DNA from: Lichenostomus cassidix
Taxonomy: Eukaryota; Chordata; Aves; Passeriformes; Meliphagidae
Direction: 5' to 3'
Length of the DNA: 64,000 nucleotides
Assembly (NCBI GenBank): GCA_008360975.2
Contig: CM039211.1
Span: forward strand, 638,038-702,037
Positions 1 to 64,000 of this stretch are shown piece by piece. The notes under the pieces were generated by a model. It made no database searches, was not told the origin of the DNA, and saw only the letters and a list, made by a program, of their open reading frames with translations. Numbering within the stretch: the stretch's first letter is position 1; the number at the start of each line of letters is the position of its first letter. The position numbers were made by a program, and so were the translations under genes.

Positions 1-293
1 GCCCCGCAGCCCTGCAAGAGCCCAAAGGCAGCTGGTGGCCCTTGCCTGGGGCTTCGGGGCCTCGGGGCTGTGACTTGGCAGCCTGCAGCCCCTGCAGGGG
101 ATGAAGAGCCCCATCACAGCTCTTTTGCTCCAAGCCCGTGCTAGGGCCACGTGTCCCCTGCGCAGATTGTCCCCTCCCTCCCGCAGAAGGGAGAAGAGCA
201 GGCCTCTGGGGTGGCTTCGGGGCTGGGGGGACAGCTGTTAGCACCGGGAGGTGTCCCTGGGTCGGGTACGAGCCCAGAGCCTGTCTCCTGCAG

Positions 294-1781
294 GCTCACC
301 TCCTGCCGACGGTGGACGGCAAGGACCCGAGCCTCAAGTACATCTCCCCTGCCACGGTAAGGGGGCTGCAGCCCCTCCCCAGCCCCTCCGAGGGGCTCCC
401 TGCCTGCTGTCCCCCTGCCTGCCCCACTGTGTCCCCTCCCTCGGTGACAAGCTCTCCCCGCAGCTGGCAGCGGTGCTGACGGGGCGCTTCAGCAGCTCCA
501 TCGAGAGAAGCATCGTCGTGGACTGCCGCTACCCCTACGAGTACGAGGGGGGCCACGTCAAGGTCAGAACCCCGCTGGGGCCGGCAGGCAGGAGGGTGTC
601 CGGAGCCCAGCCACCCTCAGAGGTGCTGAGCCCACCACCAGGGGCTGAGAGCACAGGGATTCAGGATCCCCCCGGGTTTGTTCAGTACCCGCTGAGAGAT
701 TCAGCAGCCCCTCCAAATATACTGAGCCACCACCACAGATATGACAAACAGCCCCCCGGAGGTACTCTGAGCCCCCAGAGGGGTTGAGCGGCTCCCCATG
801 AAGGGTGCTGAGCCGCCCAGGGGGATGGAGGAGCCCCGTGAGAAGCGCCAAGGCACACCTCCCGGGTAAAGCTAGGTCCCCAGCCGAGAAGAGGAGGCTG
901 ATGATGGCTCACTAGTCTGGGAGATGGTGCTGCTGGGGGAGGCAGTGGGACAGCGTGCTTGGGTCCCTGCAGCAAATGCAGTGGGAGGCAGAGGGCAAAC
1001 AGGAGCGTGCTGTGTCTCGGCAGGGTGCTGTGAACCTGCCGCTGCAGCACGAAGTGGAGGCATTCCTGCTGGAGCAGCCCGTGGTGGCCCCGGCCAGCGG
1101 CAAGAGGGTGATCATCATCTTCCACTGCGAGTTCTCTCTCGAGCGGGGGCCCAAAATGTGAGTGAGGGAGGGATGGCACGGGGGGCACACGGGGCTGTGC
1201 CAGCCGCCCAGGCACGGCCGGATGGCGGCACGGGGCTGATGCCGTGGCCTTTGCCCGTGGCCTTTGCCAGGTGCAAGTTCGTGCGGGAGAAGGATCGCTC
1301 CTGCCACGAGTACCCGCAGCTGCAGCAGCCCGAGCTGTACGTGTTGAAGGGCGGCTACCGGGAGTTCTTCTTCCAGTTCCCGGTGAGTCCCCGGCCCGCG
1401 TCCCCTCGGGGCCAGGGGGTCCGTGCCGGGAGGGCAAGGAGCGGCGGGGCCCGGGGCGGTGGCGAGGGGCAGCTGTGGCTCTGAGCATCCTCACAGCTGC
1501 CGTGGCAGGGAGGGAGGGAGGCAGGGAGTGGATCTGCGGGGCTCTCGGGGGCTGCGCCGATCGGGAGGTTGTTCCGGGGGCGCTGCGTTTGTCCCGGGCT
1601 GGGGGCTGCTCTGTGCTGCGGGGGCTGACGGGGCCGTGGCTTGCAGGGCCACTGCGAGCCCCGGGGCTATCGGCCCATGCACCACCCGGCGTTCAAGGAG
1701 GAGCTGCGCAAGTTCCGCGGGCGCTGCTGGCTCGGCGAGCGCGGCCGGCGGGAGCTCTTCAGCCGCGGGAGGCACCTGTGA
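294..1781 (+). CDS. CDC25A-like: CDC25-like phosphatase, unit 1, exons 8-12 only (5' part outside window)
   Basis: Coding exons 294-356, 464-562, 1024-1157, 1271-1382 and 1647-1781 match exons 8-12 of the complete copies. All have GT-AG borders and the stop TGA is at 1779-1781. They encode the whole catalytic domain: the rhodanese-type segment with DCRYPYEYEGGH (exon 9), the HCEFSLERGP loop (exon 10) and the conserved C-terminal helices (exons 11-12). One difference from the other copies is Ser for Gly at the residue equivalent to 351 (codon AGC in exon 10), just before the GKR that leads into the core strand. The window opens inside intron 7, so exons 1-7 are not seen and the integrity of this copy cannot be judged. 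Confidence 0.88.
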
Positions 1782-2110
1782 GCGCTCGGGGGTCCCGCAG
1801 CCCCGCCGGGGGAACGCTGCAGCTGCGAGCGGGTGAAGGCTTCTCTCGGCGGCATCGGATGCGCCTCGGCTCGCTCTGCTTTGTTAGGATAGTTTTGGGG
1901 TGGTGTTAACTTTAATGTAGTGTTAAGACCTGTTTTACGCTTTTTTCTTGTTATATATATTGTTGTGTTGGTTTATGGTAAGAAATACTGTTGTGCTTGT
2001 TCATGGTTATAAATATTTTTGTGTTTGTTCATTGTTATAAATATTTCTGTGTTTGTTTATTGTTACGATTGCTAGTTACTCTTTCTATCAATAAACTCCT
2101 ATTGAAGGAG
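1782..2110 (+). promoter_or_regulatory. 3' UTR of unit 1: AT-rich 28-bp repeats and poly(A) signal
   Basis: After the stop, GC-rich sequence gives way to an AT-rich stretch (about 1944-2066) of imperfect 28-bp repeats built around TTCATGGTTATAAATA. AATAAA follows at 2090-2095. The order is the same after every copy. Confidence 0.7.
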
Positions 2111-2474
2111 AACAAATGCTGCTCCTGAGCTCTCACTGCCCACCGCAGGGCTCTGCAGGGATGGGTACCCCTGATCCCGGGCTGGGGGCACGGGCAGGCT
2201 GGGCTGGAGGCGTCTGTGGGCTTGGGGACAGCGAGAGATGGGGCGATGGCTTCCCTGTGGGACGTGGTGGCTTCCCCAGGAACAGGGTGGCTTAGGTAGC
2301 AAGCGTTGGCCCCTTGGCTGCTATTCCTGCACGGTGGGGTGGCAGTGCAGGATGGTCCTGGACACCCCCTGGCAAGGGACCTCCTTTCCAGGGCATGCTG
2401 GGCTTGGCAGGACTCCTGGGACACTTGGGGTGGGGACTTTCTGCCTCCTTCCCTGGGACCCCCATAGCCATTGG
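2111..2474. other. Unit 1 gene-distal flank, no gene recognised
   Basis: This is the conserved flank after the poly(A) signal, matching about 14870-15230 of unit 2. Homology to the other units stops near 2465-2475, where an LTR-like block begins. Open frames here are short and not conserved in sense. Confidence 0.6.
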
Positions 2475-3431
2475 TGTGAGAGTCTGAAATAGCTCACATT
2501 TAACAATAGTTCAAGCCTATTCCTTGATCATGAAAACAACGTTTTCATGCCTGAAATGGTGATATATAATTTTGGTCATCATAAGAAAGACTGTATAAAA
2601 CATCTGCAATTAAAGAAGCCTCCCTGAACATACCTGACTGAGCCTTTGGACTAAAAGTCAGACTGCTGGGATTAGATTAAGGAAATCTATTGTTCTGTCA
2701 TCGCAGTCTGAGTGAAAGGTGTGCATCCACAATGGCCCAACCTACCAGTTGCTCTGAGAATCATCCCTGGGTAAATTTGGGGTGAGGGAAAGCAGAGCTC
2801 ACTGAAGCCAGGTTTACACAGACTTTCCCCCCAGCCAAGGGGGGAGGAGGTGGTTTTGGTGCATGGCATAACCTCTGGTCAGAGGCAATAAACACCCATC
2901 CATCCTCTGTTACACAAACTGGTTCCAGCTGTGGAACCCCCAAGCCCACTGCCCACATCCACGGGGCTTTCAGGTGAGAGGCAGCTGAGGGGGAGTCATA
3001 ATCCATAAAAGAAATCCCACAGTGCTAGGCCTTGCACCACAGGACTGCAAGCAGAGTCTGCTACAAGAGGCTGCCCCTTCCCCCCAGGGGGACATGCCTG
3101 GACATTGTCACCTGGCCTGAGTGTACATTAACCCATGGGATTCTGTGCTTCTCAGGGGAGAGCATCACCACCAAGAAGACCAGCTGGAGAGGAACAATGC
3201 AACATTGTTGGGATCCATGGATGGTGATATTTTCTTTATTCTGACTCTGTCACCCTATTTCTGTCCCTCCATCCTCTTTTCCTGCTTCTCCTTTTCTCTC
3301 TTTTCTTCTCTCTCTCTATCTCTCATATTTACCACCAAATAAAATCCATGCTATTGACTCACATATGGTGTCATATGCACCTTAATTGGGGCAGAGGTCT
3401 TTCTAAGAATCTTAATAATTGGATCTTAACA
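2475..3431 (-). mobile_element. LTR-like block private to unit 1 (957 bp)
   Basis: On the minus strand this block begins TGTTAAGATCC and ends CTCTCACA, giving TG...CA ends with short inverted termini (TGT/ACA). No protein of note is encoded. It sits where units 2-5 have about 1.5 kb of other sequence (distal flank, a GGGGAA repeat, the old ERV's 3' LTR and its integrase end). No target-site duplication is seen: the left flank ends ...ccattgg and the right flank starts gcccctg. A solo LTR left after a deletion is the simplest reading. Coding function is unlikely. Confidence 0.5.
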
Positions 3432-6400
3432 GCCCCTGAGCAAAGACAACTCCACGCAAGAGTTTGTCTTTACTCGATGCAGAATTAATCCAGACAGTTT
3501 TTCCTAAAAGTCCCCTGACATGCACTGCTGGCACCTTGTCTCCATCTGCTCTATGCAGGGGGTTGGATTGGGCAGGGCTTGCTTGGCTGGTGGAGCCTTG
3601 GGTATTAACTCACCATGTGGCCTTAGCTAAGTGCATCTCCCACTTTTTGAAAGTTCCTCCAAGTTCAAAGTTCCCCACCCAGTGCCTTCAAGGTGGTTTT
3701 GAGAAGGCCATTGCACCGTTCCACTTTCCCTGCCGCTGGTGCACGATAAGGGATATGGTGCAGCCATTCCATACCATGTTCCCCAGCCCAGGTGTTTCTC
3801 AGGCTGTTCTTGAAATGAGTCCCACTGTCAGACCCCATCCTCTCTGGGGTACCATGCCTCCAAAGGAACTGCTTTCCAAGGCCCAGGATGGTGTTACGGG
3901 CAGTGGCATGAGGCACAGGGTAGGTCTCCAGTCACCCAGTGGTGGCCTCTGCCATTGTGAGCACGTAGCACTTGCAGTAGCAGGTTTGAGGCAGTGGGAT
4001 GTAACAGATCTGCCAGGCCTCCCCATACTTGCATTTGGATCGCTGCCCACCATACCACAGGGGCTTCACCCCCTTGGCCTGTTTGATTGCAGCACATGTC
4101 TCACAGTCATGGATCACCTGGGAGATACAGTCCATGGTTAGATCCACCCCTTGGTCTCGTGCCCACTTATAGGTGGCATCTGTGCCTTGATGGCCTGAGG
4201 CATCATGGGCCCATTAAGCTTGGAACAACTCTCCCTTGTGCTGCTAATCCAGATCAATCTCTGACACCTCTATCTTCACAGCCTCATCCACCTGTGTGTT
4301 GTTTTGATGTTCCTCATTAGCTTGGCTCCTGGGGACATGGGCATCTACTTGATGGACTTTCACGGGTAGCTTGTCTACCTGAGTGCCAATGTCTTTCTAC
4401 TCCTCAGCAGCACAGATTGGTTTTCCCTTATGCTGCCAATTGGCCTTTTTTCCACCTCTCCAGACACCCCCACAGGGCATTGGCTACCATCCATGTATTT
4501 GTATAAAGGTAACAATTTGGCCACTTCTCTCTTTCAGCAATGTCTTGGGCCAACTGGATGGCTTTGAGTTCAGTGAGTTGGCTCGATCCACCTTCTCCTT
4601 CTGTAGATTCTTGACGTGTCCTGTGGTGTAGCAGTGGCTCTTGCCCACATGGGTTTGAGCGACCAGCTGCACGGGGCAGTGGCCCCAGAAGAGGAGTCCT
4701 GGCTGTGAGGTGAGGTTTCAGTCAGAGTGACAGAGTAGTGCACACCCAGGGCACCTTGTGGCTGGCACCATCAATATGCAACAGGCAAGCAGCCCATTGG
4801 CCCTGCACATCTCCCCTCCCCTACCCCTTATCTGGTCTATGTTCTAGAACCTTTGCCTTTGTTCTCCCCAGCCGGGTTCCCCCATTGCATTTTCAATGTT
4901 TGTACCCTCCCCTGAAGCGCCCTCATTGTTCTGTACCCCTGTCTATCCCAGTCCCAACGCACTCCTATCGGACCTTCATAGTAAACCTCTCCCCTTCACC
5001 CGACCCTCTTAAACCCTTGCCACCGTGTGCTCGCAGCCCTTGAGCCTCAGATCCAGCCATTTCTCCAACCTCCTCATTCCGCTCCTCCTTCACGCCCTTC
5101 CTCATCTGCCCGCTATCCTCAATAAATCCCTGGATTCCAGCCTCAGCCGCCTATGTTTCCTTCTTCTTCACCATGGTTCCTGCCTGCCTCCATCCCCTGG
5201 GACTCCTCACACTAACCTGCGAGCTCCACTGCCGTGGCCAGTCCAGCGTGGACTCGGCACAGCTCGGCTCTGCAGCCCACCTCTTGGCTGCGGCTCTGGG
5301 GCACGCTGCCGTACCAGAGAGGGAAGCTGCAATGTGGGGCTCCATACAGCTGCTTCCCACTTCCAGTTCATTCCTATGATGTGACAGGAACTGTCAGTAA
5401 AAAGAGCGCAGTGTGTTTCTTCTGCTGGCAGTTGGTTGTATGGTGGAGCTTCCTCAGCATGCCTCATTTGTTCTTGTTCTTCTTCATCAGTGAGACCAGA
5501 GCTTTCACCTTCAGGCCAATTTGTAATTATTTCCAAGATCCCAGAGCAATTCGGTTTCCACTGTGGGCGTGTTGTGTGATGAGGGCAATCCATTCAATCC
5601 ATGTGGCATTGGAGGCATGATGGGTAGAGAGAAACTTTCCCTTCAACATCCACCTGAGCACTGGTAGTCGGGGTGCCAGGAGGAATTGTTCTTCAGTGCC
5701 AATGGCCTCTGAGGCAGCTTGGATCCCTTCATAAGCTGACAGAATTTCCTTCTCTGTTGGGCTGTAGTTGTGCACAGTCCCTCTGTAACTTTGGCTCCAG
5801 AATCCAAGTGGTCAAACCCAAGTCTCCCCAGGAACCTTCTGCCAAAGGCTCCAGGACAGTCCATTGTTCCCAGCTGCAGAGGAGAGCATGTATTTCTCCT
5901 CTGCTCCTGTCCTGACTGGGCCAAGGGCTACTGCATAAGCTATCTCCTGCTTGATCTGGGTGAAGGCTTGCTGCTGTTCAGGGCCCCAGTGGAAATCGTT
6001 CTTCTTACGGGTAACCAGATAGAGAGGGCTCACTATTTGACTGTACTCAGGAATATATATTATCCAAAAGCCTATGGTGCCTAGTAAAGCTTGTGTTTCC
6101 TTCTAGTTGGTTGGTGGAGACATAGCAGTGATCTTATTGATGACCTCAGTGGGCATCTGATGTTGTCCATCTTGCCACTTCATCCCCAGGAATTAGATCT
6201 CTTTGGCAGTTCCCTTGACTTTGTTCTTTTTGATGGCAAAGCCAGCTTCCAGGAGAATCTGGATGATCTTCTCTCCCAAATACCTCCAATGCCATGTTCA
6301 CCCACACAATGATGTCATTGATGTACTGGAGTACTGGAGATGTTCTGGAGCCTCACCCTTTTCCAGCTCAGCCTGAATCAGCCCATGGCAGATGGTGGGA

Positions 6401-7658
6401 CTGTGCTTCCACCCCTGGCCCAGTCGGTTCCAGGACTACTGCACGCCCCTCCAGGTGAAAGCAAACTGAGGCCTGCACTCTGCTGCCAGAGGAATGGAGA
6501 AAAATGCATTTGCAATGTCAATAGTGGCACCACTTTGCTGCCCTGGTCTCCAGCTCATACTGGAGCTCCAGCATGTCCGGCAGGGCAGCGCTCAGCAGTG
6601 GAGTCACCTCACTGAAGCCACGACAGTCCACTGTCAATCGTCATTCCCCTTCAGACTTGCACACAGCCCAAATGGGGCTGTTGAAGGGTGAGTGGGTCTT
6701 GCTGACCATCCCTTGACTCTCCAGCTTATGGATCAGTGGGAGGATGGGAACCACAGAATCTTTATTTGTCTGGTACTGCTGGTGATGCACTGTCAAGGTG
6801 GCAATGGGCACTCGCTGCTCTTCTCCCTTCAGAAGCCAAACTGCAGAAGGACTCTCAGACAGCCCAGGCAATGTGCCTAATGCCCTCTGCCTCCACAGCA
6901 GCTATTCCAAAGGCTCACCTGAGTCCCCTTGGGTCTTTGAAATACCTGCTCCAGAGGAAGTCTCTGCCCAGAATACACTGGGCCTCTGGGCCAGTAACAA
7001 TAGGATGTGTCTTCCACTCTTTTCCAGTTAGGCTCCCCTTGGCTTCCAGCAGGGTCAACTGCTGTGATCCCCCCATCACTGCAGAAATAGAAACCAGTTC
7101 TGCCCCCACGTGTCTCTCAATGGGATCAAGGAGCACTGCATGCTCATGTCAACCAAGGCTTTGTATTTTTGTGGTTGTGATGTTCCAGGCCATCAGACCT
7201 ACACTGTCCAAAAAACACGATTTTCCCTCGCCTCTGCCTCGCTAGAGGCAGGGCCTCTCTAATTCTGGTTATCAATTGAAATTCAAGCTACTTCGCTTCT
7301 GGTGGAACTCCCTCTCTGAGCATTACCATGTTTCACCATGCTGCAAGAACAGAAGTTGATTTTCCCTCCCACCTCCTCATGTCTTCCCCATGGTCACACA
7401 GGAAAAACCATACTTCTGCTCTTGGGATGTACCCTCTGTCCCTAGCTGCAGGACATCTGCTTCTGGAAACAGGGCCTCTGGTCTGTACTGATGTCACTTG
7501 GAGAAGGCCCTCCTGCAGCTCCTTCCTGAGTTTCTGATGAGTCTTCTCCATCCTATCTTCTATTTTCTGGATGGCCTCTGACAGACTCGTTTCCACAGCT
7601 GCAATCCTTTCTTGTGTTGGGTCCTGCACAGTGTCTGCATACGCCCAGAGCCTCCTCA
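3432..7658 (-). mobile_element. Degraded ERVL-like provirus, unit 1, pol-pro-gag part before the gap
   Basis: Read on the minus strand, frames interrupted by stops and shifts recall a retroviral pol and gag. They include integrase with the DSGTHFKNS segment (about 3665-3916), the HHCC zinc region (3932-4147), RNase H (about 4400-5560, broken by a 654-bp insertion), RT with a YIDD region (about 6300-6340), protease remnants (about 6915-7136) and a Gag coiled coil (7333-7658). The protein pieces resemble the intact frames of the young provirus at 54892-60762, so the two are one family. Many stops and frame changes show it is dead. The 3' LTR and integrase C-terminus are missing, cut off at 3432 by the LTR-like block. 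Confidence 0.82.
4671..5324 (+). mobile_element. 654-bp LTR-like insertion within RNase H of the old ERV, unit 1
   Basis: A 654-bp stretch absent from the young provirus interrupts RNase H. It is bordered by AGCTGC at 4665-4670 and 5325-5330, a likely 6-bp target duplication. Its core, 4704-5211 (508 bp), runs TGTGAGG...CCTCACA, a perfect 7-bp inverted terminal pair typical of an LTR. It holds AATAAA near 5120, which suggests plus-strand orientation. About 33 bp precede and 113 bp follow the core inside the direct repeats, so it may be more than a simple solo LTR. Confidence 0.55.
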
Positions 7659-8158
7659 NNNNNNNNNNNNNNNNNNNNNNNNNNNNNNNNNNNNNNNNNN
7701 NNNNNNNNNNNNNNNNNNNNNNNNNNNNNNNNNNNNNNNNNNNNNNNNNNNNNNNNNNNNNNNNNNNNNNNNNNNNNNNNNNNNNNNNNNNNNNNNNNNN
7801 NNNNNNNNNNNNNNNNNNNNNNNNNNNNNNNNNNNNNNNNNNNNNNNNNNNNNNNNNNNNNNNNNNNNNNNNNNNNNNNNNNNNNNNNNNNNNNNNNNNN
7901 NNNNNNNNNNNNNNNNNNNNNNNNNNNNNNNNNNNNNNNNNNNNNNNNNNNNNNNNNNNNNNNNNNNNNNNNNNNNNNNNNNNNNNNNNNNNNNNNNNNN
8001 NNNNNNNNNNNNNNNNNNNNNNNNNNNNNNNNNNNNNNNNNNNNNNNNNNNNNNNNNNNNNNNNNNNNNNNNNNNNNNNNNNNNNNNNNNNNNNNNNNNN
8101 NNNNNNNNNNNNNNNNNNNNNNNNNNNNNNNNNNNNNNNNNNNNNNNNNNNNNNNNNN
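7659..8158. other. Assembly gap (500 N) at the ERVL integration site of unit 1
   Basis: Exactly 500 N, so a placeholder of unknown true size. The left edge ends cctcctca and the right edge starts ggtactcac. In the uninterrupted unit 2 these are separated only by ccat (20954-20957), so no sequence need be missing unless something is inserted here. Confidence 0.97.
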
Positions 8159-9380
8159 GGTACTCACTGTTTCTTCCATGTAATTCCACGTCATCCTTGC
8201 TAAGGCAGGGTGTGCTCTGGTGGTGCATGTCGTGCCAGTTTCAGTCACATCATTGGGGTACATTTTACCATGTCAGGGCTCCTAATTGTTTGGTCATGGG
8301 AGAATATGATCTCTACCACTGCCAGTTCTCTCAGGCATTGAATCACTTGCTCCATGGCCTTCCAGAGGTTTAGCTGCAGCTGGAGATGTTCTCAGCACAG
8401 CCATCTTTCCTTCATGCTGCTTAAAAGCTGTGTCCACAGGCTGAGAGCTTCAGGGCCCTTGTCATCCCTTGGTCAATACTTAAATCAAGGGACAGGTACC
8501 CCAAATGTCTTGCTTCAGTGCCATCCAGAATTGTGCCATTACCTGCAGCATCCCAGATTCGGACCATACAATTTAATAGAGTTTCATCAGGCTGTAGGGT
8601 GAAATCTTTAGTCAAGGTATGAAGGCTTTCTATGGACAGGACAGGAATCTATTGTATTCCAATGATTTCTGGCTCAGATTCCTGCGCTAGCTGTGAAGAT
8701 CCTGGCTGCCCATCACCACCCACTGGGTGAATAGATTTAGTTTTATACTTCCTTTTCTGAACAGGGGCAATTGTTACTGGTTTCAGCTCGCCACCTGTTT
8801 TAGCTCCAGCTGCAGTGATTGGGGTGTCTGCTGACTTATTCTCTTGCCCCTCTGGCTGTATCTTCTGCCCTACAGTATCTAGCAGTGAATGGTGAATGTT
8901 GGCCTGGGCCCAGCACATTGCAACGAGCTTCTTTCCATTTGAGTTGTTACTGCAATTTTTCTTCAGACACTTCCCCACTTTGGCTAGATTCTGAATTTCT
9001 TCAGTAGGGAAGTTCCAAGCTACTGGGTCAGAAAATTGATTCAGGGTCTTGCCTAGGTCGCCTCATACTCCATACCACTTAGAATTTTCCACAACTGGGG
9101 CAGGTATCTGGGCAATCCCTCTGGAAATCTCAGCTCTTATTTTAGACAAGCTGGTCACTGCATAGAGGAGCCCTGCTTGATAACATAACTAGAAGTTGTT
9201 TTCTTTGACATCCGGGGGAAACTAAACATTTGGAAAAGCTGATGTGCCAGATCTGAAGGGGAAGAAGGAGATGAAGGGCTGGGAATTATCATGCCCTGCA
9301 TTTCCCCGAACTGGGGGTAATTGCTAATACATCCTGTGTTTTTACCCTAACTGGGCGTAATTGTTATTACATCCCAAAAG
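8159..9380 (-). mobile_element. Degraded ERVL-like provirus, unit 1, gag part after the gap
   Basis: Minus-strand remnants of Gag include a capsid-like segment (8421-8615; IWDAAGNGTILDG compares with the young Gag) and a basic or N-terminal segment (8649-8978). Upstream sequence lacks a recognisable primer-binding site or 5' LTR, so the 5' end is undefined. It is almost identical to 20958-22180 of unit 2. Confidence 0.75.
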
Positions 9381-15918: not shown

Positions 15919-16005
15919 GGGGAAGGGAAAGGAGAAGGGGACGGGGAAGGGGAAGGGGAAGGGGAAGGGGAAGGGGAAGGGGAAGGGGAAGGGGAAGGGG
16001 AAGGA
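15919..16005. repeat. (GGGGAA)n microsatellite, long form, unit 2
   Basis: About 85 bp of mostly perfect GGGGAA hexamers, interrupted near its start (gagaagggga). Units 4 and 5 keep only about 30 bp at the same place. Confidence 0.9.
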
Positions 16006-16486: not shown

Positions 16487-16550
16487 TTCTACCCCTTATT
16501 CTGTGCCATCAGCTTCATTGCCAATTTAATACATTTTAAATCTAAACAAA

Positions 16551-49908: not shown

Positions 49909-49938
49909 GGGGAAGGGGAAGGAGAAGGGGAAGGGGAG
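49909..49938. repeat. (GGGGAA)n microsatellite, short form, unit 5
   Basis: About 30 bp, as in unit 4. Confidence 0.8.
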
Positions 49939-52553: not shown

Positions 52554-54886
52554 AGCTGCAATGTGGGGCTCCATACAGCTGCTTCCCACTTCCAGTTCAT
52601 TCCTATGATGCGACAGGAACTGTCAGTAAAAAGAGCGCAGTGTGTTTCTTCTGCTGGCAGTTGGTTGTATGCTGGAGCTTCCTCAGCATGCCTCATTTGT
52701 TCTTGTTCTTCTTCATCAGTGTGACCAGAGCTTTCACCTTCAGACCAATTTGTAATTATTTCCAAGATCCCAGAGTAACTCAGTTTCCACAGTGGGCGTG
52801 TTGTGTGATGAGGGCAATCCATTTAATCCATGTGGCATTGGAGGCATGATGGGTAGAGGGAAACTTTCCCTTCAACATCCACCTGAGCACTGGTAGTTGG
52901 GGTACTAGGAGGAATTGTTCTTCAGTGCCAATGGCCTCTGAGGCAGCTTGGATCCATTCATAAGCTGCCAGAATTTCCTTTTCTGTTGGGCTGTAGTTGT
53001 GCACAGACTCTCTGTAACTTTGGCTCCAGAATCCCAGTGGTCAAACCCAAGTCTCCCCAGGAACCTTCTGCCAAAGGCTCCAGGACAGTCCATTGCTCCC
53101 AGCTGCAGAGTAGAGCATGTATTTCTCCTCTGCTCCTGTCCTGACTGGGCCAAGGGCTACTGCATGAGCTATCTCCTGCTTGATCTGGGTGAAGGCTTGC
53201 TGCTGTTCAGGGCCCCAGTGGAAATCGTTCTTCTTACGGGTAACTAGATAGAGAGGGCTCACTATTTGACTGTACTCAGGAATATGTATTATCCAAAAGC
53301 CTATGGTGCCTAGTAAAGCTTGTGTTTCCTTCTAGTTGGTTGGTGGAGACATAGCAGTGATCTTATTGATGACCTCAGTGGGCATCTGATGTTGTCCATC
53401 TTGCCACTTCACCCCCAGGAATTGGATCTCTTTTGCAGTTCCCTTGACTTTGTTCTTTTTGGTGGCAAAGCCAGCTTCCAGGAGAATCTGGATGATCTTC
53501 TCTCCCAAATACCTCCAATGCCATGTTCACCCACACAATGATGTCATCGATGTACTGGAGTACTAGAGATGTTCTGGAGCCTCACCCTTTTCCAGCTCAG
53601 CCTGGATCAGCCCATGGCAGATGGTGGCAGACTGTGCTTCCACCCCTGGGGCAGTCGGTTCCAGGTATACTGCACGCCCCTCCAGGTGAAAGCAAACTGA
53701 GGCCTGCACTCTGCTGCCAGAGGAATGGAGAAAAATGCATTTGCAATGTCATAGTGGCACCACTTTGCTGCCCTGGTCTCCAGCTCATACTGGAGCTCCA
53801 GCACATCTGGCACTGCAGCGCTCAGCAGTGGAGTCACCTCACTGAAGCCACGACAGTCCACTGTCAATCTTCATTCCCCTTCAGACTTGCACACAGGCCA
53901 GATGGGGCTGTTGAAGGGTGAGTGGGTCTTGCTGACCATCCCTTGACTCTCCAGCTTATGGATCAGTGGGAGGATGGGAACCACAGAATCTTTATTTGTC
54001 TGGTACTGCTGGTGATGCACTGTCAAGGTGGCAATGGGCACTCGCTGCTCTTCTCCCTTCAGAAGCCAAACTGCAGAAGGACTCTCAGACAGCCCAGGCA
54101 ATGTGCCTAATGCCCTCTGCCTCCACAGCAGCTATTCCAAAGGCTCACCTGAGTCCCCTTGGGTCTTTGAAACACCTGCTCCAGAGGAAGTCTATGCCCA
54201 GAATACACTGGGCCTCTGGGCCAGTAACAATAGGATGTGTCTTCCACTCTTTTCCAGTTAGGCTCTCCGTGGCTTCCAGCAGGGTCAACTGCTTTGATCC
54301 CCCCGTCACTGCAGAAATAGAAACCAGTTCTGCCCCCACGTGTCCCAATGGGATCAAGGAGCACTGCATGCTCTTGTCAACCAAGGCTTTGTATTTTTGT
54401 GGTTGTGATGTTCCAGGCCATCAGACCCACCCTGTCCAAAAGACACGATTTTCCCTCGCCTCTGCCTTGCTAGAGGCAGGGCCTGTCTAATTCTGGTTAT
54501 CAATTGAAATTCAAGCTGCTTCCCTTCTGGTGGAACTCCCTCTCTGAGCATTACCATGTTTCACCATGCTGCAAGGACAGAAGTTGATTTTCTGTCCCAC
54601 CTCCTCATGTCTTCCCCATGGTCACACAGGAAAAAACATACTTCTGCTCTTGGGATGTACCCTCTGTCCCTTGCTGCAGGACATCTGCTTCTGGAAGCAA
54701 GGCCTCTGGTCTGTACTGATGTCACTTGGAGAAGGCCCTCCTGCAGCTCCTTCCTGAGTTTCTGACGAGTCTTCTCCATCCTATCTTCTATTTTCTGGAT
54801 GGCCTCTGACAGACTCGTTTCCACAGCTGCAATCCTTTCTTGTGTTGGGTCCTGCACAGTGTCTGCATACGCCCAGAGCCTCCTCA

Positions 54887-54891
54887 CCATG
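54887..54891. other. 5-bp target-site duplication, left (CCATG)
   Basis: CCATG precedes the 5' LTR and recurs at 60763-60767 after the 3' LTR. Units 2 and 4 have this site once, uninterrupted (tcaccatggtactc). Confidence 0.9.
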
Positions 54892-55403
54892 TGTCCTAGG
54901 TTGCAATATTGATGTAGTTAAGTATTCTATTACCACCAGCTGTGGGCCATTAGCTGCTATCACCCACTCCGGATGACAGGCAATGGGCCATCCTTAGCTA
55001 TTATCACTTGCTAATGGCCCACCCCGCATGACAGGCAATGGGCCATCAGGGACCCACCGTGTGACTCGTGGACTTATCTCATCCCATTGTGAGATGCTCT
55101 GCCAAGGAGGGAGGAGCCAGGTGTTCCCACCTGGATATAACCTGGCCTTGGAACTGCCTGAGCTAGCCCTGTCTACTGGGTTCCCAGAGGACCAGAGCTA
55201 CTACTGGATCTTCAGCTGGAGGCTAGACCTTCACAGGATCACCGCTTCAACTGGACTACTTCAGTTGGACTGCTACTACCACCCTAACAGGGTGTTAGGT
55301 TGTATCTGACTTTGTCAGTGCTTTTTCTTGTATTATTTCACTTTTTTTTTTAATTTCAGTCTTGACTTGTGATCTCTCACTGGTTTGTTTCCAAACCAAC
55401 ACA
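54892..55403 (+). repeat. 5' LTR (512 bp, TG...CA)
   Basis: Begins TGTCCTAGG and ends CAACACA. A 20-bp motif ending GGGCCATC is repeated at 54973-54992 and 55028-55047, like a U3 enhancer duplication. A TATA-like ATATAA lies at 55135-55140. A long pyrimidine run followed by TTTCAG (55341-55359) resembles a splice acceptor. No AATAAA was found. The 93-codon open frame at 55028 is in LTR sequence and is not thought to be a gene. Confidence 0.92.
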
Positions 55404-55408
55404 TATTT

Positions 55409-55426
55409 TGGCGCCCAACGTGGGGC
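55409..55426 (+). other. Primer-binding site, tRNA-Lys type
   Basis: TGGCGCCCAACGTGGGGC, five bases after the LTR, matches the 18-nt site I know for tRNA-Lys(1,2)-primed retroviruses. ERVL elements were named for a tRNA-Leu primer, so this is a departure. Confidence 0.8.
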
Positions 55427-55458
55427 ACGACCTGGGGAAACGCAGAAATCCTATCACC

Positions 55459-57033
55459 ATGATGCTCAGCTTATCTATATGGGTGCTTTATCTCGCTCTC
55501 TATATCTTTCCTCAACTGGGAAGCTATCTGCCCGTCGTATTGCTCTTGTTACGATCAGGGCATAGCATGAAAATTGCTCTATTGGTTTATTATGCCTATT
55601 GCATAGTAACCTGTGAGGCGATGAACACCATTCGGTATATTTACTCGACTTTGTCTGCCTGGCCTAACCTGAGCTGCTCCATCTGGGACCTCCTCAGCAA
55701 TCGCACCCACCCTCTGGGGCTAGGAAGAGAGAGCGGTTTCTTCCAACATTTCAGGTCAGGCACAGCCGTCCTTGACAATATTGAGTTCTCTCTGGATGCT
55801 AGGGATGGCATAATGTTTTTGTCAGTTCTGTTCTCTTTGACCAGCACCGTGTACCTCATGCTGAAGATCAGAACATTATTTTGTCTTCTTGAGGAGAAAC
55901 AAAGCAAATCAGAACAGCCGAAGCCTGTAGCAGTTGCCCCCGTCCAGAAAAAGAAATCAAAAAGCAAATCAGTCCGCATAGCGACTGATGGGGATGCGGC
56001 AGGACCATCTCACCAAGCAGAAGAGACAGAGCCGGAGATTATCACTCGCTCTCTATCCCTGGGGGAGCTGCGTGACCTACGGAGGGAATTCACCCGGCAG
56101 GCGAATGAGTCCATCTTAACCTGGCTGCTCCGCATCTGGGATGCCGCCGCTAATGACACCATTCTGGACGGAAGTGAGGCCAGGCAACTGGGATCCCTGT
56201 CCCAGGATGTGGTCATTGACCAGGGAATTGGGAAAACCCAGGAAACTCTCAGCCTCTGGCGGCGATTGCTGGCGAGTGTACGGGACAGATACCTGTGCAA
56301 AGAAGACCTCCAGATGCACCAAAGAAAATGGAACACAATAGAACAAGGTATCCGATGCCTGAGGGAATTGGCCGTGCTAGAGATCATTTTCTCAGACAAT
56401 GAGAGATTCCCCAAGAGCCCAGATAACGTCCAGTGCACTTCACAAATGTGGCTAAGATTCGCGCGGCTCGGACCAGAGATATACTCTCGTTACCTGGCAA
56501 CACTGCAGTGGAGGGAAGGCGAAGACCAGGTGGGCGTGTTAGCAAACAAACTGAGAATTTATGAGGACACTGTCACCGCCCCACTACGCACCCAGGTCTC
56601 ATCAGTGGAAACAAACCTGGCCGAGCAAGTCCGGAGCTTGATTGAAGAGAATCAGAAACTAAGGAAAGAGCTCAAAGAAGGATTTTTCCATGCCACACCG
56701 AAACCAACCCGAGTCTCTGCCATCAGGAGCAGACATCCCCCAGCCAAGGAAAGAAGACAAACTCCACGACGTGACCTCTGGTTTTTCCTTCAAGAGCATG
56801 GGGAAGACATGAGGAAGTGGGATAGGAAACCCACCTCCACCTTAGCAGCCCGGGTACGTGAATTGAAAAAGGAAACATCCACTTCAGGAGGCTCATCTAG
56901 GTACAACACTGCCCCAGTCTCTTGTGGACAGAACTCCAGACAGAATGGAAGTGATAATATGACTGATCCGCTTGAAGGGACCTCAGGAACACATTTACAG
57001 GAGAAGAACATCGTGCACCAAAAACAGGATTAG
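55459..57033 (+). CDS. gag: Gag-like polyprotein with N-terminal hydrophobic module
   Basis: 524 codons from the first ATG after the primer site (cacc before it favours initiation) to TAG at 57031. The frame is also open upstream, but only from a GTG inside the LTR. Residues 3-31, about 38-52 and about 117-136 are strongly hydrophobic. Between the second and third lie two N-glycosylation sequons (NLS at 70, NRT at 81) and cysteines. From about 155 it aligns by eye with the old Gag copies: a basic region, a capsid-like part (IWDAAANDTILDG) and a coiled coil near 380-415. No CX2CX4HX4C zinc knuckle is seen. The N-terminal part is not found in the old copies here. Topology is inferred from composition only. 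Confidence 0.8.
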   Translation: MMLSLSIWVLYLALYIFPQLGSYLPVVLLLLRSGHSMKIALLVYYAYCIVTCEAMNTIRYIYSTLSAWPNLSCSIWDLLSNRTHPLGLGRESGFFQHFRSGTAVLDNIEFSLDARDGIMFLSVLFSLTSTVYLMLKIRTLFCLLEEKQSKSEQPKPVAVAPVQKKKSKSKSVRIATDGDAAGPSHQAEETEPEIITRSLSLGELRDLRREFTRQANESILTWLLRIWDAAANDTILDGSEARQLGSLSQDVVIDQGIGKTQETLSLWRRLLASVRDRYLCKEDLQMHQRKWNTIEQGIRCLRELAVLEIIFSDNERFPKSPDNVQCTSQMWLRFARLGPEIYSRYLATLQWREGEDQVGVLANKLRIYEDTVTAPLRTQVSSVETNLAEQVRSLIEENQKLRKELKEGFFHATPKPTRVSAIRSRHPPAKERRQTPRRDLWFFLQEHGEDMRKWDRKPTSTLAARVRELKKETSTSGGSSRYNTAPVSCGQNSRQNGSDNMTDPLEGTSGTHLQEKNIVHQKQD

Positions 57034-57564
57034 AGGAGCCCTGCCTCTAGCCAGGTAGAGGAAAGGGACAATCGGATCTATTGGACTGTGTGGATCCGAT
57101 GGCCTGGCACGTCTGACCCACAAAGATACACGGCTTTGGTTGATACCGGCGCTCAGTGCACCCTGATGCCATCCAGGTATGTGGGGACCAAATCCATTTC
57201 TATTTCTGGGGTGACAGGAGGATCCCAGCAGCTGACTGTACTGGAAGCTGAAGTGAGTTTAACTGGGAATGAGTGGCAGAAACACCCCATTGTGACTGGT
57301 CCAGACGCACCATGCATCCTCGGCATAGATTATCTCAGGAGTGGATATTTCAAGGACCCAAAGGGACATCGCTGGGCTTTTGGGATAGCAGCCGTAGAGA
57401 CAGAAGACATAAGACAACTGAATACCCTGCCTGGTCTCTCAGATAACCCGTCTGCTGTAGGACTACTGAGAATTGAAGAACAGCGGGTACCAATTGCTAC
57501 AGCAACAGTGCATCGCCGGCAATACCGCACTGACAGAGACTCTGTGGCCCCATCCATAAGATGA
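57034..57564 (+). CDS. pro: Retroviral aspartic protease, in frame after gag UAG
   Basis: The frame continues from gag through a single TAG (57031-57033) with no other stop until TGA at 57562-57564. The active-site motif LVDTGAQ has its DTG at 57142-57150; a later ILGIDYL segment fits the second half of a retropepsin fold. No good ATG heads the frame, so readthrough of the UAG is the likely route of expression, as in gammaretroviruses. The end is abnormal: compared with old copies it lacks about 13 nt near 57550, which throws the following RT out of frame. Confidence 0.78.
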   Translation, partial: RSPASSQVEERDNRIYWTVWIRWPGTSDPQRYTALVDTGAQCTLMPSRYVGTKSISISGVTGGSQQLTVLEAEVSLTGNEWQKHPIVTGPDAPCILGIDYLRSGYFKDPKGHRWAFGIAAVETEDIRQLNTLPGLSDNPSAVGLLRIEEQRVPIATATVHRRQYRTDRDSVAPSIR

Positions 57565-58922
57565 TTCGGGATCTGGAGAGCCAAGGGGTGGTCAGCAAGG
57601 CTCACTCACCCTTTAACAGCCCTATATGGCCAGTGCGTAAGTCCAGTGAAGAATGGAGACTGACGGTGGATTACCGTGGCCTGAATGAAGTCACACCACC
57701 ACTGAGTGCTGCTGTACCGGACATGTTGGAACTTCAGTATGAGCTGGAATCCAAGGAAGCAAAGTGGTATGCGACCATTGATATTGCCAATGCCTTTTTC
57801 TCCATTCCTCTGGCAGCAGAGTGCAGGCCTCAGTTTGCTTTCACCTGGAGGGGTGTGCAGTACACATGGAACCGACTGCCCCAGGGGTGGAAGCACAGTC
57901 CCACCATCTGCCATGGACTGATCCAGGCTGCACTGGAAAAGGGTGAGGCTCCAGAACATCTGCAGTATATTGATGACATCATTGTGTGGGGGGACACAGC
58001 AATGGAAGTATTTGGGAAAGGAGAGAAAATCATCAGAATTCTCCTGGAAGCCGGTTTCGCCATCAAGAAGAGCAAAGTCAAGGGACCTGCCCGAGAGATC
58101 CAGTTCCTGGGAGTAAAGTGGCAAGACGGACGGCGTCAGATTCCTTCTGAGGTCATCAATAAGATCATCACGATGTCTCCACCAACCAACAAAAAGGAGA
58201 CACAAGCCTTCCTAGGCGCCATAGGCTTTTGGAGAATGCACATCCCTGAGTACAGCCAGATTGTGAGTCCTCTCTACCTCATCACCCGCAAGAAGAACGA
58301 TTTCCACTGGGGCCCTGAACAGCAGCAAGCCTTCACCCAGATCAAACAGGAGATCGCTCATGCGGTAGCCCTGGGACCAGTCAGGACAGGACCAGAGGTA
58401 AAGAATGTGCTTTACTCTGCATCCGGGAGCCATGGTCTGTCCTGGAGCCTTTGGCAGAAGGTGCCTGGTGAGACCCGAGGTCGACCACTGGGATTCTGGA
58501 GTCGAAGTTACAGAGGGTCTGAAGTCAACTACACTCCCACCGAGAAAGAAATCTTGGCAGCTTACGAAGGAGTTCAAGCCGCCTCAGAGGTGATCGGCAC
58601 AGAAACACAACTTCTCCTTGCACCCCGACTGCCAGTGCTGGGGTGGATGTTCAAGGGAAGGGTTCCCTCTACCCACCATGCCACTGATGCCACATGGAGC
58701 AAATGGATTGCTCTCATCACACAGCGCGCCCGTATTGGAAACCCGAATCGCCCTGGGATTCTGGAAATCATAACAAACTGGCCTGAAGGTGAGACTTTTA
58801 AATTATCTTCAGAAGAAGCAGAGGAGCAAGTAGCACGTGCTGAGGAAGCACCCCGTATAACGAGCTGCCGGAGAGTGAAAGACGCTATGCCCTCTTCACC
58901 GATGGGTCCTGCCGAATTGTAG
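57561..58922 (+). pseudogene. pol: Reverse transcriptase and start of RNase H (pol part 1, frame-shifted)
   Basis: An open frame of 453 codons, in the -1 frame relative to pro. It contains the RT palm with the first Asp in the DIANAFFSIP segment, LPQGWKHSP, and the catalytic YIDD at 57966-57977, then the thumb and connection. The apparent ATG at 57561 overlaps the pro stop and is probably incidental. Near 58851-58856 (a run of C) the sense of the RNase H N-terminus moves to another frame, so the last ~20 codons before the stop at 58920 are out-of-frame tail. A single-base loss is the simplest cause. Confidence 0.82.
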
Positions 58923-60250
58923 GCGCAGATCGGAGATGGAAAGCTGCAGTATGGAGCCCCACACGACAAGCTGTACAGGCTACCGAGGGACAAGGTGGAT
59001 CGAGTCAGGTCGCAGAGCTTAAAGCCATCCAACTGGCTTTGGATATTGCCGAACGAGAGAAATGGCCAAGGCTTTATCTCTACACCGACTCTTGGATGGT
59101 AGCCCATGCACTGTGGGGATGGTTAGATCGCTGGAGAAAGGCTAACTGGCAGCGCAGAGGAAAACCCATCTGGGCCGCTGAGATTTGGCAGGACATCGCC
59201 GCCCGGGCAGAAAAGCTGACCGTGAAAGTTCGACACGTGGATGCACATGTACCTCAGAGTCGGGCTAATGAAGAGCATCGTAACAACGAGCAGGTGGACC
59301 GAGCTGCCAAGGTGGAAGTGTCACAGGTGGATCTGGACTGGCAGCACAAAGGAGCATTATTTCTAGCTCGTTGGGCCCATGATGCCTCTGGTCATCAAGG
59401 GAGAGATGCGACATACAGGTGGGCTCGTGACCGAGGGGTGGACTTGACCATGGACAGCATCTCACAGGTCATCCACAGCTGTGAGACTTGCGCTGCAATC
59501 AAACAGGCCAAGCGGGTGAAGCCTCTGTGGTATGGTGGACGATGGTCGAAGTACAGGTATGGGGAAGTATGGCAAGTTGACTACATCACACTTCCCCAAA
59601 CGCGCCAAGGAAAGCGCTACGTGTTGACCATGGTGGAAGCAACCACAGGATGGTTAGAGACCTACCCTGTGCCTCATGCTACTGCCCGGAACACCATCTT
59701 GGGTCTGGAAAAGCAAGTCCTGTGGAGACATGGTACCCCTGAGAGAATCGAGTCTGACAATGGAACCCATTTCAAGAATGGCCTCATTAGCACCTGGGCT
59801 AGAGAACACGGAATTGAATGGATATACCACATCCCCTATCATGCACCAGCTGCTGGGAAAGTTGAACGGTGCAACGGAATACTTAAGACAACTTTGAAGG
59901 CACTTGGCGGGGGAACCTTCAAAAATTGGGAACTGAACTTAGCAAAGGCCACCTGGATGGTTAACACAAGGGGTTCTATCAATCGAGCCGGTCCTGCTGA
60001 GTCCGAACCTTTGCACACAGTGGATGGAGATAAAGTCCCTGTGGTACACGTAAGAGGTTTTTTAGGAAAGACTGTTTGGATTAGTCCCACCTCAGGCAAA
60101 GGCAAACCCATCCGTGGAGTGGTTTTTGCCCAAGGACCTGGTTATACTTGGTGGGTGATGAAGGCAGATGGGGAAACCTGTTGTGTACCACAAGGGGACC
60201 TTATCTTGAGTGAGAACTGTGTAGATGGTAATAGAATAAGGGGTGGATAA
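58856..60250 (+). pseudogene. pol: RNase H and integrase (pol part 2, separate frame)
   Basis: Open from about 58856 to TAA at 60248-60250, the last bases before the 3' LTR. The RNase H catalytic Asp is in FTDGSC at 58901 and another is in YTDSW at 59087. The integrase zinc finger has His codons at 59378 and 59393 and Cys codons at 59480 and 59489. The catalytic core has Asp at 59579, Asp at 59756 and Glu at 59864; the last two are 35 residues apart (D,DX35E). All key residues are present. It needs pol part 1 for expression but is cut from it by the frame break; no env frame follows. Confidence 0.85.
60231..60248 (+). promoter_or_regulatory. Short polypurine tract before the 3' LTR
   Basis: Purine-rich AGAATAAGGGGTGGAT overlaps the end of integrase. 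The old copies have AATAAGGGGTAGAA at the same place, which supports plus-strand priming here. Confidence 0.6.
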
Positions 60251-60762
60251 TGTCCTAGGTTGCAATATTGATGTAGTTAAGTATTCTATTACCACCAGCT
60301 GTGGGCCATTAGCTGCTATCACCCACTCCGGATGACAGGCAATGGGCCATCCTTAGCTATTATCACTTGCTAATGGCCCACCCCGCATGACAGGCAATGG
60401 GCCATCAGGGACCCACCGTGTGACTCGTGGACTTATCTCATCCCATTGTGAGATGCTCTGCCAAGGAGGGAGGAGCCAGGTGTTCCCACCTGGATATAAC
60501 CTGGCCTTGGAACTGCCTGAGCTAGCCCTGTCTACTGGGTTCCCAGAGGACCAGAGCTACTACTGGATCTTCAGCTGGAGGCTAGACCTTCACAGGATCA
60601 CCGCTTCAACTGGACTACTTCAGTTGGACTGCTACTACCACCCTAACAGGGTGTTAGGTTGTATCTGACTTTGTCAGTGCTTTTTCTTGTATTATTTCAC
60701 TTTTTTTTTTAATTTCAGTCTTGACTTGTGATCTCTCACTGGTTTGTTTCCAAACCAACACA
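60251..60762 (+). repeat. 3' LTR (512 bp)
   Basis: Same length and, as far as I can read, same sequence as the 5' LTR (constant offset 5,359, no indels). It is followed by the CCATG duplication at 60763-60767. Confidence 0.92.
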
Positions 60763-60767
60763 CCATG

Positions 60768-61969
60768 GTACTCACTGTTTCTTCCATGTAATTCCACATC
60801 ATCATCACTAAAGCAGGGTGTGCTCTGGTGGTGCATGTCGTGTCAGTTTCAGTCACATCATTGGGGTACATTTTACCATGTCAGGGCTCCTAATTGTTTG
60901 GTCATGGGAGAATATGATCTCTATCACTCAGTTCTCTCAGTTCCCTCAGGCATTGAATCCTTTTGTCCATGGTCTTCCAGAGGTTTAGCTGCAGCTGGAG
61001 ATCTTCTCAGCACAGCTATCTTTCCTTCACGCTTCTTAAAAGCCATGTCCACAGGCTGAGATCTTCAGGCCCCCTTGTCATCCCTTGGTCAATACTTAAA
61101 TCAAGGGACAGGTACCCCAAATGTCTCGCTTCAGTGCCATCCAGAATTGTGCCATCACCTGCAGCATCCCAGATTCGGAACATACAATTTAATAGAGTTT
61201 CATCAGGCTGTAGGGTGAAATCTTTAGTCAAGGTATGAAGGCTTTCTATGGACAGGACAGGAATCTATTGTATTCCAATGATTTCTGGCTCAGATAGCTG
61301 CGCTAGCTGTGAAGGTCCTGGCTGCCCATCATCACCCACTGAGTGAATGGATTTGGTTTTATGTTTCCTTCTCTGAACAGGGGCAGTTATTATTAGTTTC
61401 AGCTCCCCACCTGTTTTAGCTCCACCTGCAGTGATTGGGGTGTCTGCTGACTTATTCTCTTGCCCCTCTGGCTGTATCTTCTGCCCTACAGTATCTAGCA
61501 GCATAAGGTAAGCGTTAGCCAGGGCCCAGCACATTGCAATGAGCTTCTTTCCATTAGAGTTGTTAATGCAGTTTTTCTTCAGACACTTCCCCACTTTGGC
61601 TAGATTCTGAATTTCTTCAGTATGGAGGTTCCAAGCTACTGGGTCAGAAAATTGATTCAGGGTCTTGCCTAGGTCGCCTCATACTCCACACCACTTAGAA
61701 TTTTCCACAACTGGGGCAGGTATCTGGGCAATCCCTCTGGAAATCTCAGCTCTTATTTTAGACAAGCTGGTCCCTGCATAGAGGAGCCCTGCTTGATAAC
61801 ATAACTAGAAGTTGTTATCTTTGATATCCAGGGGAAACTGAACATTTGGAAAGGTTCATGTGCCAGATCTGAAGGGGAAGAAGGAGATGAAGGGCTGGGA
61901 ATTATCATGCCCTGCATTTCCCCGAACTGGGGGTAATTGCTAATACATCCTATGTTTTTACCCTAACTG
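60768..61969 (-). mobile_element. Degraded ERVL-like provirus, unit 5, right part (gag)
   Basis: Resumes the old Gag where it was split: capsid-like segment 61016-61231 and N-terminal segment 61265-61594 on the minus strand, with stops and substitutions. The N-terminal segment (VGKCLKKNC type) differs from that of the young Gag. Confidence 0.78.
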
Positions 61970-62698
61970 GGTGTAATTGTTATTACATCCCAAAACAAAA
62001 CTACCAAGGCCAGAATGCCAATTACCACTCACAAGAGCAAAACAAAGGACAGCACAAAATGGGAAAACTGAAGACCTTTGTCTGAAATCACCCGCAATTT
62101 TATTCTCGGTCAAATTCCCATTTCGGCCCTTCAAATGTTTCAAGGCAGCAGTCAGCAACACTGGAATAGTGTAAAATGTCAGAGGCATGAGTGATGCACA
62201 GCTTTCTCAGAATTCCTGGCTGACATAGAAGTATCTGTACACATAACAAACAGATGGAAATTAGCCGTGAGCAGGAGGAAGTGGTGCTTTCTGCGGGGTC
62301 TTGTCAGAGCTGCTGGCGCTCGGCAGAGGAACGGGGCGCCTTCCCTTCCCAACCCTGTGAAATGGCTTTGGAGTCCTTGGGGTGCTGTGATCTCCAGCCA
62401 CAGGGAGAAAAGAGAGACACAGCAAACACTCCATTCTGATTTTTCCCCCACACTTTTCACCTCCGGTAAAATTCCATTTGCTTTAACACATTCGTGAGGA
62501 AACCGAGGCAGGCTGGAGCCACGGAGGAAATGAACACCAGGGATTCCAAGATTTCAGCCTCGCTCTCCTCACACGGGATGCAGCACTCAGCGACACGGCC
62601 GGGCTGGCAAGGCGCTGTCAGGCCATCAGTCGGTCCCCCGCCGCTGGGACAGGAGGGCCACCAGCGCTGCCCGAGTGTCGCTGCAGGGAGGAGCTCCC
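61970..62698. other. Upstream region of unit 6 gene, no gene recognised
   Basis: Same conserved upstream block as in the other units, with small private differences (for example ggaaattagccg near 62257). Confidence 0.5.
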
Positions 62699-63308
62699 GC
62701 CCTGAGGGGCCGTGAGGGGCCTGGCCTGGCCCCGCCCCTTCTCGCCTGGCCCCGCCTCTCTGCTGTGGCCCCGCCCCTTCCCTTGGCACCGCCCCTTCCC
62801 GCCTGGCCCCGCCCCTTCTCGCCGTGGCACCCAAACCGCCCCGAAGCTGCGGCTCCGCCCCCGAGCGCCGCCGACACCTCTCATTGGCTGCCGGCGTCCC
62901 CTCGCGCCCAACGCCACCTCCCCTTGCCTCGAGCCGTCGCCTCGTGCCCAACGCGCTCTCTCTCCCATTGGCTGCACCTGCCGCTGTTGTTGTTATTGCT
63001 GTTAGAGTAAACAGCAGCGGGCGGCTGGCGCCTGTCACCTGTCGCGTCGGTCACCTCTGCCAGCCTCTGCCAGCCTCTGCCAGCCTCTGCGAGCCTCTGC
63101 CAGACTCTGCCAGCCTCTGCCAGCCTCTGCCAGACTCTGCCAGCCTCTGCCAGACTCTGCCAGACTCTGCCAGACTCTGCGAGCCCTTCTTTTCTCCTCC
63201 TACCCCTTGTCACCTCTTGCCACCTGTCCCCTGTCCCCTGTCCCCTGTCCCCTGTCCCCGGACACTTGCCGGAGCTCGATCGTCGCTCGCTCGGTCCCTG
63301 CCCGGACC
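62699..63308 (+). promoter_or_regulatory. Promoter of unit 6 CDC25 gene
   Basis: About five GC boxes lie from 62728 to 62815, two of them degraded (ccgcctct, caccgcccc). Inverted CCAAT boxes are at 62883-62887 and 62967-62971 and GTAAACA at 63007-63013. About thirteen 10-bp repeats fill 63055-63184. Confidence 0.65.
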
Positions 63309-64000
63309 ATGTCACTGTGCGGCGGCCGCGGGCTGCCCGGGCTGCTGGCCATCTCGCCGCTGCCCTCGCCGGGCACGGCCCCGCTCACGCCGCTGGCGCT
63401 GGACAGGTGAGGGGGTGGCCGGGGGCCGGAGGGCTGCGGGAGCTTTGGCCACCCGCCCCACGCGGGACTCGCCCCACGGGACACGGCTGCCCCTTTGCGC
63501 GGCTCGGGGCTCGGCGCTGGGGCTCGGACGTGCCTTTGCAAAGGGGGCTCGGACGCTTTTGGGATGCCCTCCTTCGGCTCGTGCCCCCGCCCCAGGGCCA
63601 GGGGAGCGAGGGGCCAGGGACAGCCGGGCCACTGACACATGCCCGTCCCGACCGCCCGCAGGCACAGCCCCAAGAGGCGCTACAGGGGGCTGCCCATCCC
63701 GCTGCTGTGGGACACGCCGTCCCCGGAGCCGGTGGCCTCGCACTGTCGCCGGGACTCCATCTCCTCGCAGCCCACGCGTGCAGGTGAGGGATGGCGCTGC
63801 TCCGCCCCACAACCGTCGCCAACCGCCCCTTGGCGGGCCTGGCGTCGTGCAGGGAGTGCCGGACAGCGGGCAGGGATGTGGCGGGGGGCTTGGCCGAGGG
63901 GCTGGAGGTGGGGGAGCCTGTGCGGGAGCGATGGGCGGGAGCCCAAAACCGCACTCGCCGGGGCTCAGCCAGGAGCCGCTCCGGCGGGGACCGTGCTCGG
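63309..64000 (+). CDS. CDC25A-like: CDC25-like phosphatase, unit 6, exons 1-2 (cut by window end)
   Basis: Exons 63309-63406 and 63662-63783 match exons 1 and 2 of the other copies with the same GT-AG borders; the rest is intron 2 to the window edge. Gly11 places it with units 4 and 5. It shares with unit 5 the intron 2 version lacking one gggctggcgag duplicate (near 63898). The rest of the gene is outside the window. Confidence 0.85.

Follow-up and report, generated by a model that had tools for sequence, protein, structure and literature searches.

CDC25B starts mitosis in a dose-sensitive way and, to go by the title of a 2002 paper by Lincoln et al., reportedly starts meiosis in mouse oocytes. 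Ampliconic tandem arrays that are homogenised by gene conversion are a known general kind of locus; among the matches listed, we found no open-licence paper in PubMed Central on CDC25 copies in birds (subscription journals and preprints lay outside the scope of the search). Here we describe a window of 64,000 nucleotides (nt) from Lichenostomus cassidix (Meliphagidae), positions 638,038 to 702,037 of contig CM039211.1 in assembly GCA_008360975.2, in which a passerine form of CDC25B is repeated head to tail. By ‘the window’ we mean this whole stretch at its full length.

The closest described genes differ from that of the window in several respects. CDC25B of the crane Grus americana (P0032) agrees with it in exon order, catalytic domain and CX5R loop, and in an RSPS site and a basic stretch ahead of that domain, but it encodes 541 rather than 449 amino acids (aa), and its degron exon, IHSLP-type segment and KSRTWAGERSKREL tail are not kept in the window gene. 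Passerine proteins annotated as ‘M-phase inducer phosphatase 2-like’ (Cyanocitta, Sturnus, Cinclus and Origma) belong to the same fast clade, are likewise without the degron exon and share with the window protein a loop of the form HCEF(S)xER, where x is V, I, A or L; a segment present in Cyanocitta and Sturnus (EDFQKT..RALKDRK..) is missing from the window gene. Leptosomus discolor resembles the window in having many annotated CDC25B-like copies, whereas its proteins are canonical in form, with degron and tail retained, and fall into a separate clade. Like ampliconic arrays, the window array runs head to tail with gene bodies closer to one another than the flanks; unlike them, it appears to bear no sign of sex linkage or testis expression.

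A head-to-tail array of CDC25B copies

Self-alignment of the window revealed a unit of approximately 12.8 kilobases (kb) that is repeated head to tail at least six times, with all genes on the forward strand and a period of about 12.80 kb (position 8159 aligns to 20958, and 30620 to 43417). Identity between units is far beyond chance, at 99.75% over 9162 base pairs (bp) for units 2 and 3 and 97.1% over 11.5 kb for another pair. Two gaps, each of exactly 500 N, indicate that the array was pieced together from three contigs (1-7658, 8159-30119 and 30620-64000), which hold about 0.6, 1.7 and 2.1 units, respectively. As expected of a tandem array, contig 30620-64000 carries its approximately 2.1 units unbroken and in the same orientation, and these diverge by 1.7-4.4% outside the gene. 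The units and gene copies are as follows, with a jump in unit phase at the second gap implying that a unit lacks at least about 5 kb there.

1 to 7658, forward strand: unit 1 (first contig), truncated by the start of the window; exons 8-12 of gene copy 1
294-356, 464-562, 1024-1157, 1271-1382 and 1647-1781, forward strand: exons 8-12 of copy 1, placed by blastn and splice sites
7659 to 8158: assembly gap of 500 N, its edges at the target site of the type of long terminal repeat (LTR) insertion seen at 54892
8159 to 20957, forward strand: unit 2, complete; gene copy 2, coding 10577-14547, 12 exons
20958 to 30119, forward strand: unit 3, truncated by a gap; gene copy 3, complete, coding 23376-27346
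30120 to 30619: assembly gap of 500 N, with the phase jump given by alignment coordinates on both sides
30620 to 42055, forward strand: unit 4, its start truncated by the gap; gene copy 4, complete, coding 31751-35718
42056 to 54891, forward strand: unit 5, complete; gene copy 5, the reference model
43569 to 44568, forward strand: upstream 1 kb of copy 5, CpG-rich and without TATAWA; CCAAT/ATTGG and GC boxes as consensus matches only
44569 to 48528, forward strand: coding region of copy 5 (449 aa), with exons 44569-44666, 44922-45043, 45403-45509, 45586-45705, 45974-46063, 46274-46447, 46569-46664, 47029-47091, 47200-47298, 47760-47893, 48007-48118 and 48394-48528
47760 to 47893, forward strand: exon 10 of copy 5 with the catalytic loop HCEFSLER, from alignment to 1cwr
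60763 to 64000, forward strand: unit 6, truncated by the end of the window; exons 1-2 of gene copy 6
63309-63406 and 63662-63783, forward strand: exons 1-2 of copy 6, placed by blastn and splice sites

All 12 exons were placed by blastn without gaps in four copies, which start at 10577, 23376, 31751 and 44569. Each complete copy runs over 1350 nt (449 codons) and ends in its one stop codon, with none inside the frame; its 11 introns all have GT-AG borders. The loop HCEFSLER is the same in all four; copy 1 differs from copy 5 at 1 of 543 exon bases. Self-alignment and exon mapping thus bear out the original prediction, made from the letters of the window, of four complete and two partial head-to-tail CDC25 copies with open frames and intact CX5R loops. 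The two copies that it called partial are indeed incomplete in the window, but it is the ends of the window that truncate them, and the exons in view are intact. Its ‘conserved promoters’ hold in a narrower sense: the upstream 1 kb, which is GC- and CpG-rich near the start codon, diverges between copies by just 0.1% (units 2 and 3) to 2.6%, and within it repeat number varies. A 10-bp repeat, CCTCTGCCAG, lies just 5′ of each start codon, with the repeat at 10416, 23215, 31540, 44314 and 63054 and in 5.2-13.2 copies; that of copy 5 spans 44314-44445 (13.2 copies).

The encoded 449-aa protein matches Pfam profiles PF06617 (2.4e-10) and PF00581 (6e-9). The M-phase inducer N-terminal region (PF06617) occupies residues 154-235, covering only profile positions 168-252 of 274, and a rhodanese-type catalytic domain with the HCEFxxxR (CX5R) loop places the protein in the CDC25 family. 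Its best match in the PDB is human CDC25B (1cwr, E 3.4e-83, 283.7 bits), with lower scores for CDC25A (8roz, 257.8) and CDC25C (3op3, 216.5); the call of subtype against A and C rests on these scores, our tree having taken in CDC25B only. Residues R488, R492 and Y497 are given as hot spots of CDC25B in an excerpt of PMC6270710. The residues aligned to them in 1cwr are retained in the window protein, a predicted phosphatase of CDK-cyclin.

The top database relatives are the passerine ‘M-phase inducer phosphatase 2-like’ proteins (64% over the full length in Cyanocitta and 81% for a 247-aa fragment from Origma). A quick tree was built from 53 chosen rows and 245 columns of the catalytic part, omitting Cyanocitta b (P0012) because it carries retained intron sequence; the four window copies form one group (approximate likelihood-ratio support, SH-aLRT, 99) that is sister to Origma solitaria of the Acanthizidae (SH-aLRT 97). 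By sequence, then, the gene is CDC25B in its passerine form, which sharpens the CDC25 identity originally proposed, and the analysis supports amplification in tandem of an intact CDC25 gene.

Divergence between units and growth of the array

Pairwise divergence between complete copies is 0.22-0.74% in exons and 0.38-1.46% in introns. The flanks and an old LTR element diverge by 1.2-4.0% between complete-copy units (except units 2 and 3) and by up to 5.2% with unit 6; the embedded antisense LTR element itself reaches 3.2% between units with complete copies. Introns of units 4 and 5 carry 26 differences in 2607 positions as against 124 in 4194 in the LTR element (Fisher p 2e-8), and for units 2 and 5 the counts are 30/2609 and 134/4206 (p 3e-8). 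Introns are thus about threefold less diverged than the LTR element, and the direction is unchanged without CpG sites. The pair formed by units 2 and 3 is far younger, with 23 differences in 9162 bp, 13 of which fall within one 1.5-kb stretch of the gene. The amplification had been thought very recent, and this fits units 2 and 3, but not most other comparisons outside the gene (1.2-5.2%).

Each pair of complete copies differs by 2-4 nonsynonymous and 1-6 synonymous changes (Nei–Gojobori, NG86: nonsynonymous divergence, dN, 0.002-0.004; synonymous divergence, dS, 0.003-0.018). Values of dN are below those of dS in all six pairs; the selection that had been proposed is suggested by this on the protein, if by few changes per pair. 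The simplest reading of the divergence pattern is gene conversion over the gene body together with constraint on the protein.

Our best explanation, which taken as a whole we consider likely, is a tandem array of passerine CDC25B in which a unit of gene plus antisense LTR element would have been multiplied by unequal exchange between repeated units. The LTR element may have offered a long homology usable for such exchange, and no breakpoint proving LTR-mediated exchange was seen in the window. Gene conversion would then have kept the gene bodies alike while the flanks drifted. The copies would be expressed and may give a higher or less destructible dose of active CDC25B, which would strip inhibitory phosphates from CDK-cyclin and so drive cells into division.

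Several points weigh against this explanation. Exon and intron divergence differ for units 4 and 5 (p 0.005) and not significantly for units 2 and 5 (p 0.17), the two exons of copy 6 are more divergent (up to 3/220), and the lower divergence of introns may instead reflect constraint or a lower mutation rate. The 12-exon splice model was read from the genomic sequence of unit 5 alone, just as the array and its gene copies are known here from an assembly.

That all four complete copies are intact, as are the visible exons of the other two, and that dN is below dS in every pair, on few changes, makes it doubtful that the array is a passenger, multiplied without benefit by exchange between LTR-bearing units and consisting of silent or decaying extra copies. 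Such an origin would draw on the old LTR element, which accounts for much of each unit and in one of them has received a fresh insertion, and exchange alone can give tandem arrays. The LTR elements concerned are the following.

50610 to 54891, reverse strand: old antisense LTR element of unit 5 (pol, protease and part of open reading frame 1, ORF1), matched by the frames of the young element in tblastn (45-80%) and in blastn (about 77%); an element of this kind is in every unit seen, and that of unit 5 continues in the next unit
42118 to 42681, reverse strand: further ORF1-like part of the old element (50%, tblastn), which runs on from the end of unit 4 into the start of unit 5
54892 to 60762, forward strand: young LTR element inside the old one of unit 5, with a 5-bp target duplication, CCATG

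CDC25B across passerines

Passerine CDC25B sequences form one clade in the tree (SH-aLRT 100, stem 0.26), with a mean root-to-tip distance of 0.59 (0.46-0.73) compared with 0.09 (0.02-0.37, budgerigar highest) in other birds. Motifs were counted in database records of at least 380 aa, including isoforms and dropping 8 records without a species name. The DDGF motif of the beta-TrCP degron occurs in 0 of 45 passerine records and 108 of 112 others. For KEN the counts are 8 of 45 and 108 of 112; a KSRTW-like motif at the C terminus is found in none of the passerine records (0 of 45) but in 111 of 112 others. In human CDC25B, DDGFVD is a beta-TrCP degron and a separate KEN serves APC/C (PMC9606124). 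The broader pattern DDGxxD is also absent from the window model and from all 45 passerine records, and a search of unit 5 for the crane degron exon gave no match (best E 2.3). A further N-terminal segment, present in the jay and starling proteins, is lost from the window protein, and unit 5 holds no match to it better than chance (best E 0.014). Where other vertebrates have the loop HCEFSSER, nearly all passerine records replace the second S by V, A, I, L, F or E, or read AH, and SSER is kept in 1 of 87 matched passerine loops.

We take the passerine gene to be most probably the orthologue of CDC25B itself, after fast change on the passerine stem, because none of canonical form turned up alongside it in passerines: a query with crane CDC25B found 0 passerines in 112 named proteins among its best 120 matches. 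A fast, degron-less CDC25B common to the sampled passerines is the more interesting fact, and a pattern wider than the tandem array. On the other side of the balance, the tree leaves 16 of 47 inner branches open and places Malurus oddly, the 45 passerine records include isoforms and several entries per species, with KEN elsewhere in 8 of the 45, and an unrelated stretch, EEGFVP, occurs in the window protein. The 8 crane-query matches without a species name could be from any bird; together with the confinement of that search to its best 120 matches and the long stem branch, they favour a passerine-specific paralogue, with canonical CDC25B persisting elsewhere unseen. We regard this as quite unlikely, because a canonical passerine CDC25B should rank near the top for a crane query, where none is named, and because the passerine records whose alignments we read all have the derived form.

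Nor does the window array appear to stand alone. Cinclus cinclus has four clusters of slightly different CDC25B-like proteins (32 records) on one contig, and Cyanocitta cristata and Aphelocoma coerulescens have two clusters each on one contig, in all cases without isoform names; CDC25B-like genes of canonical sequence lie on at least seven contigs in the non-passerine Leptosomus discolor. These copy counts were taken from gene predictions made by others, and assembly duplicates may be among them. Within each species the copies cluster in the tree, as expected from separate amplification or concerted evolution, and the array in the window seems to be an instance of a wider trend. The premise that CDC25 genes are normally single-copy per paralogue is therefore doubtful here. 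We dropped a multi-locus claim for Passer, Onychostruthus and Zonotrichia, in which differing names may be isoforms of one gene. In two Leptosomus models on other contigs (P0173 and P0177), CDC25B-like parts are fused to a PF00786 (CRIB) domain.

If all perching birds do use a fast, degron-less CDC25B that multiplies in some lineages, they would offer a natural test of how cell-cycle dose control is rebuilt. Such a gene could also be a marker of germline or sex-chromosome conflict, and a CDC25B remodelled in all passerines would be their second order-wide trait, and one of a different sort. A bolder scenario, unlikely in its entirety, is that loss of the beta-TrCP degron and C-terminal control motif on the passerine stem, with fast change, was followed by a recurrent, copy-number-variable and perhaps Z-linked family driving germline or early-embryo divisions, made uniform by gene conversion in the present array.

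For sex linkage of CDC25B we found hints only. A zebra finch record (P0207) on a contig of 82.2 megabases (Mb) is annotated as one protein in which a CDC25B-like part is fused to FSD1L-type domains, a hint of a neighbour gene; FSD1L is Z-linked in chicken, and no paper with FSD1L was among the literature matches listed. In a magpie blood transcriptome, Cdc25B was higher in males (PMC6547487, excerpt). Against sex linkage, the records of other birds lie on contigs of 18.9 to 169 Mb, and there is no neighbour gene in the window. Location on the germline-restricted chromosome is without support from the literature: no open-licence PubMed Central paper was found that treats CDC25 together with this chromosome, and cdc25 was not found in the main text of PMC10387091 (supplements lay outside the search).

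Assembly gaps and the young LTR insertion

It is decidedly improbable that haplotypes or repeated reads laid end to end inflated one or two real copies, an effect that would suit the two 500-N gaps, the 99.75% identity of units 2 and 3 over 9162 bp and the contig ends at an LTR insertion site, because contig 30620-64000 is unbroken over units that are 1.7-4.4% apart outside the gene, have unequal repeat numbers (10.2 and 13.2 copies) and are set apart by a 5.9-kb LTR insertion. Alleles or misjoins, which had been named as a possible refutation, are accordingly unlikely for this contig, with its clearly different units, one of which carries the insertion; they are possible for the near-identical units 2 and 3 and across the gaps.

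A 963-bp stretch of unit 1 (2472-3434) has no match elsewhere in the window, and the apparent 27% divergence of the downstream region of that unit is a misalignment caused by this stretch. An Rfam search of the window gave no match.

The LTRs of the young element are 512 bp each and identical at 512/512 positions, and its frames contain RVP, RVT_1, RNase H and integrase domains. ORF1, its first frame (555 aa), is without a Pfam match, and the stretch from the integrase frame to the 3′ LTR leaves no space for an envelope gene. The first contig ends directly before a CCATG target site and the second begins with the last base of that site. It is therefore probable that the assembly was broken here by the same insertion or by an insertion polymorphism. 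The gap at 7659-8158 looks as if it holds another copy of the young-element insertion.

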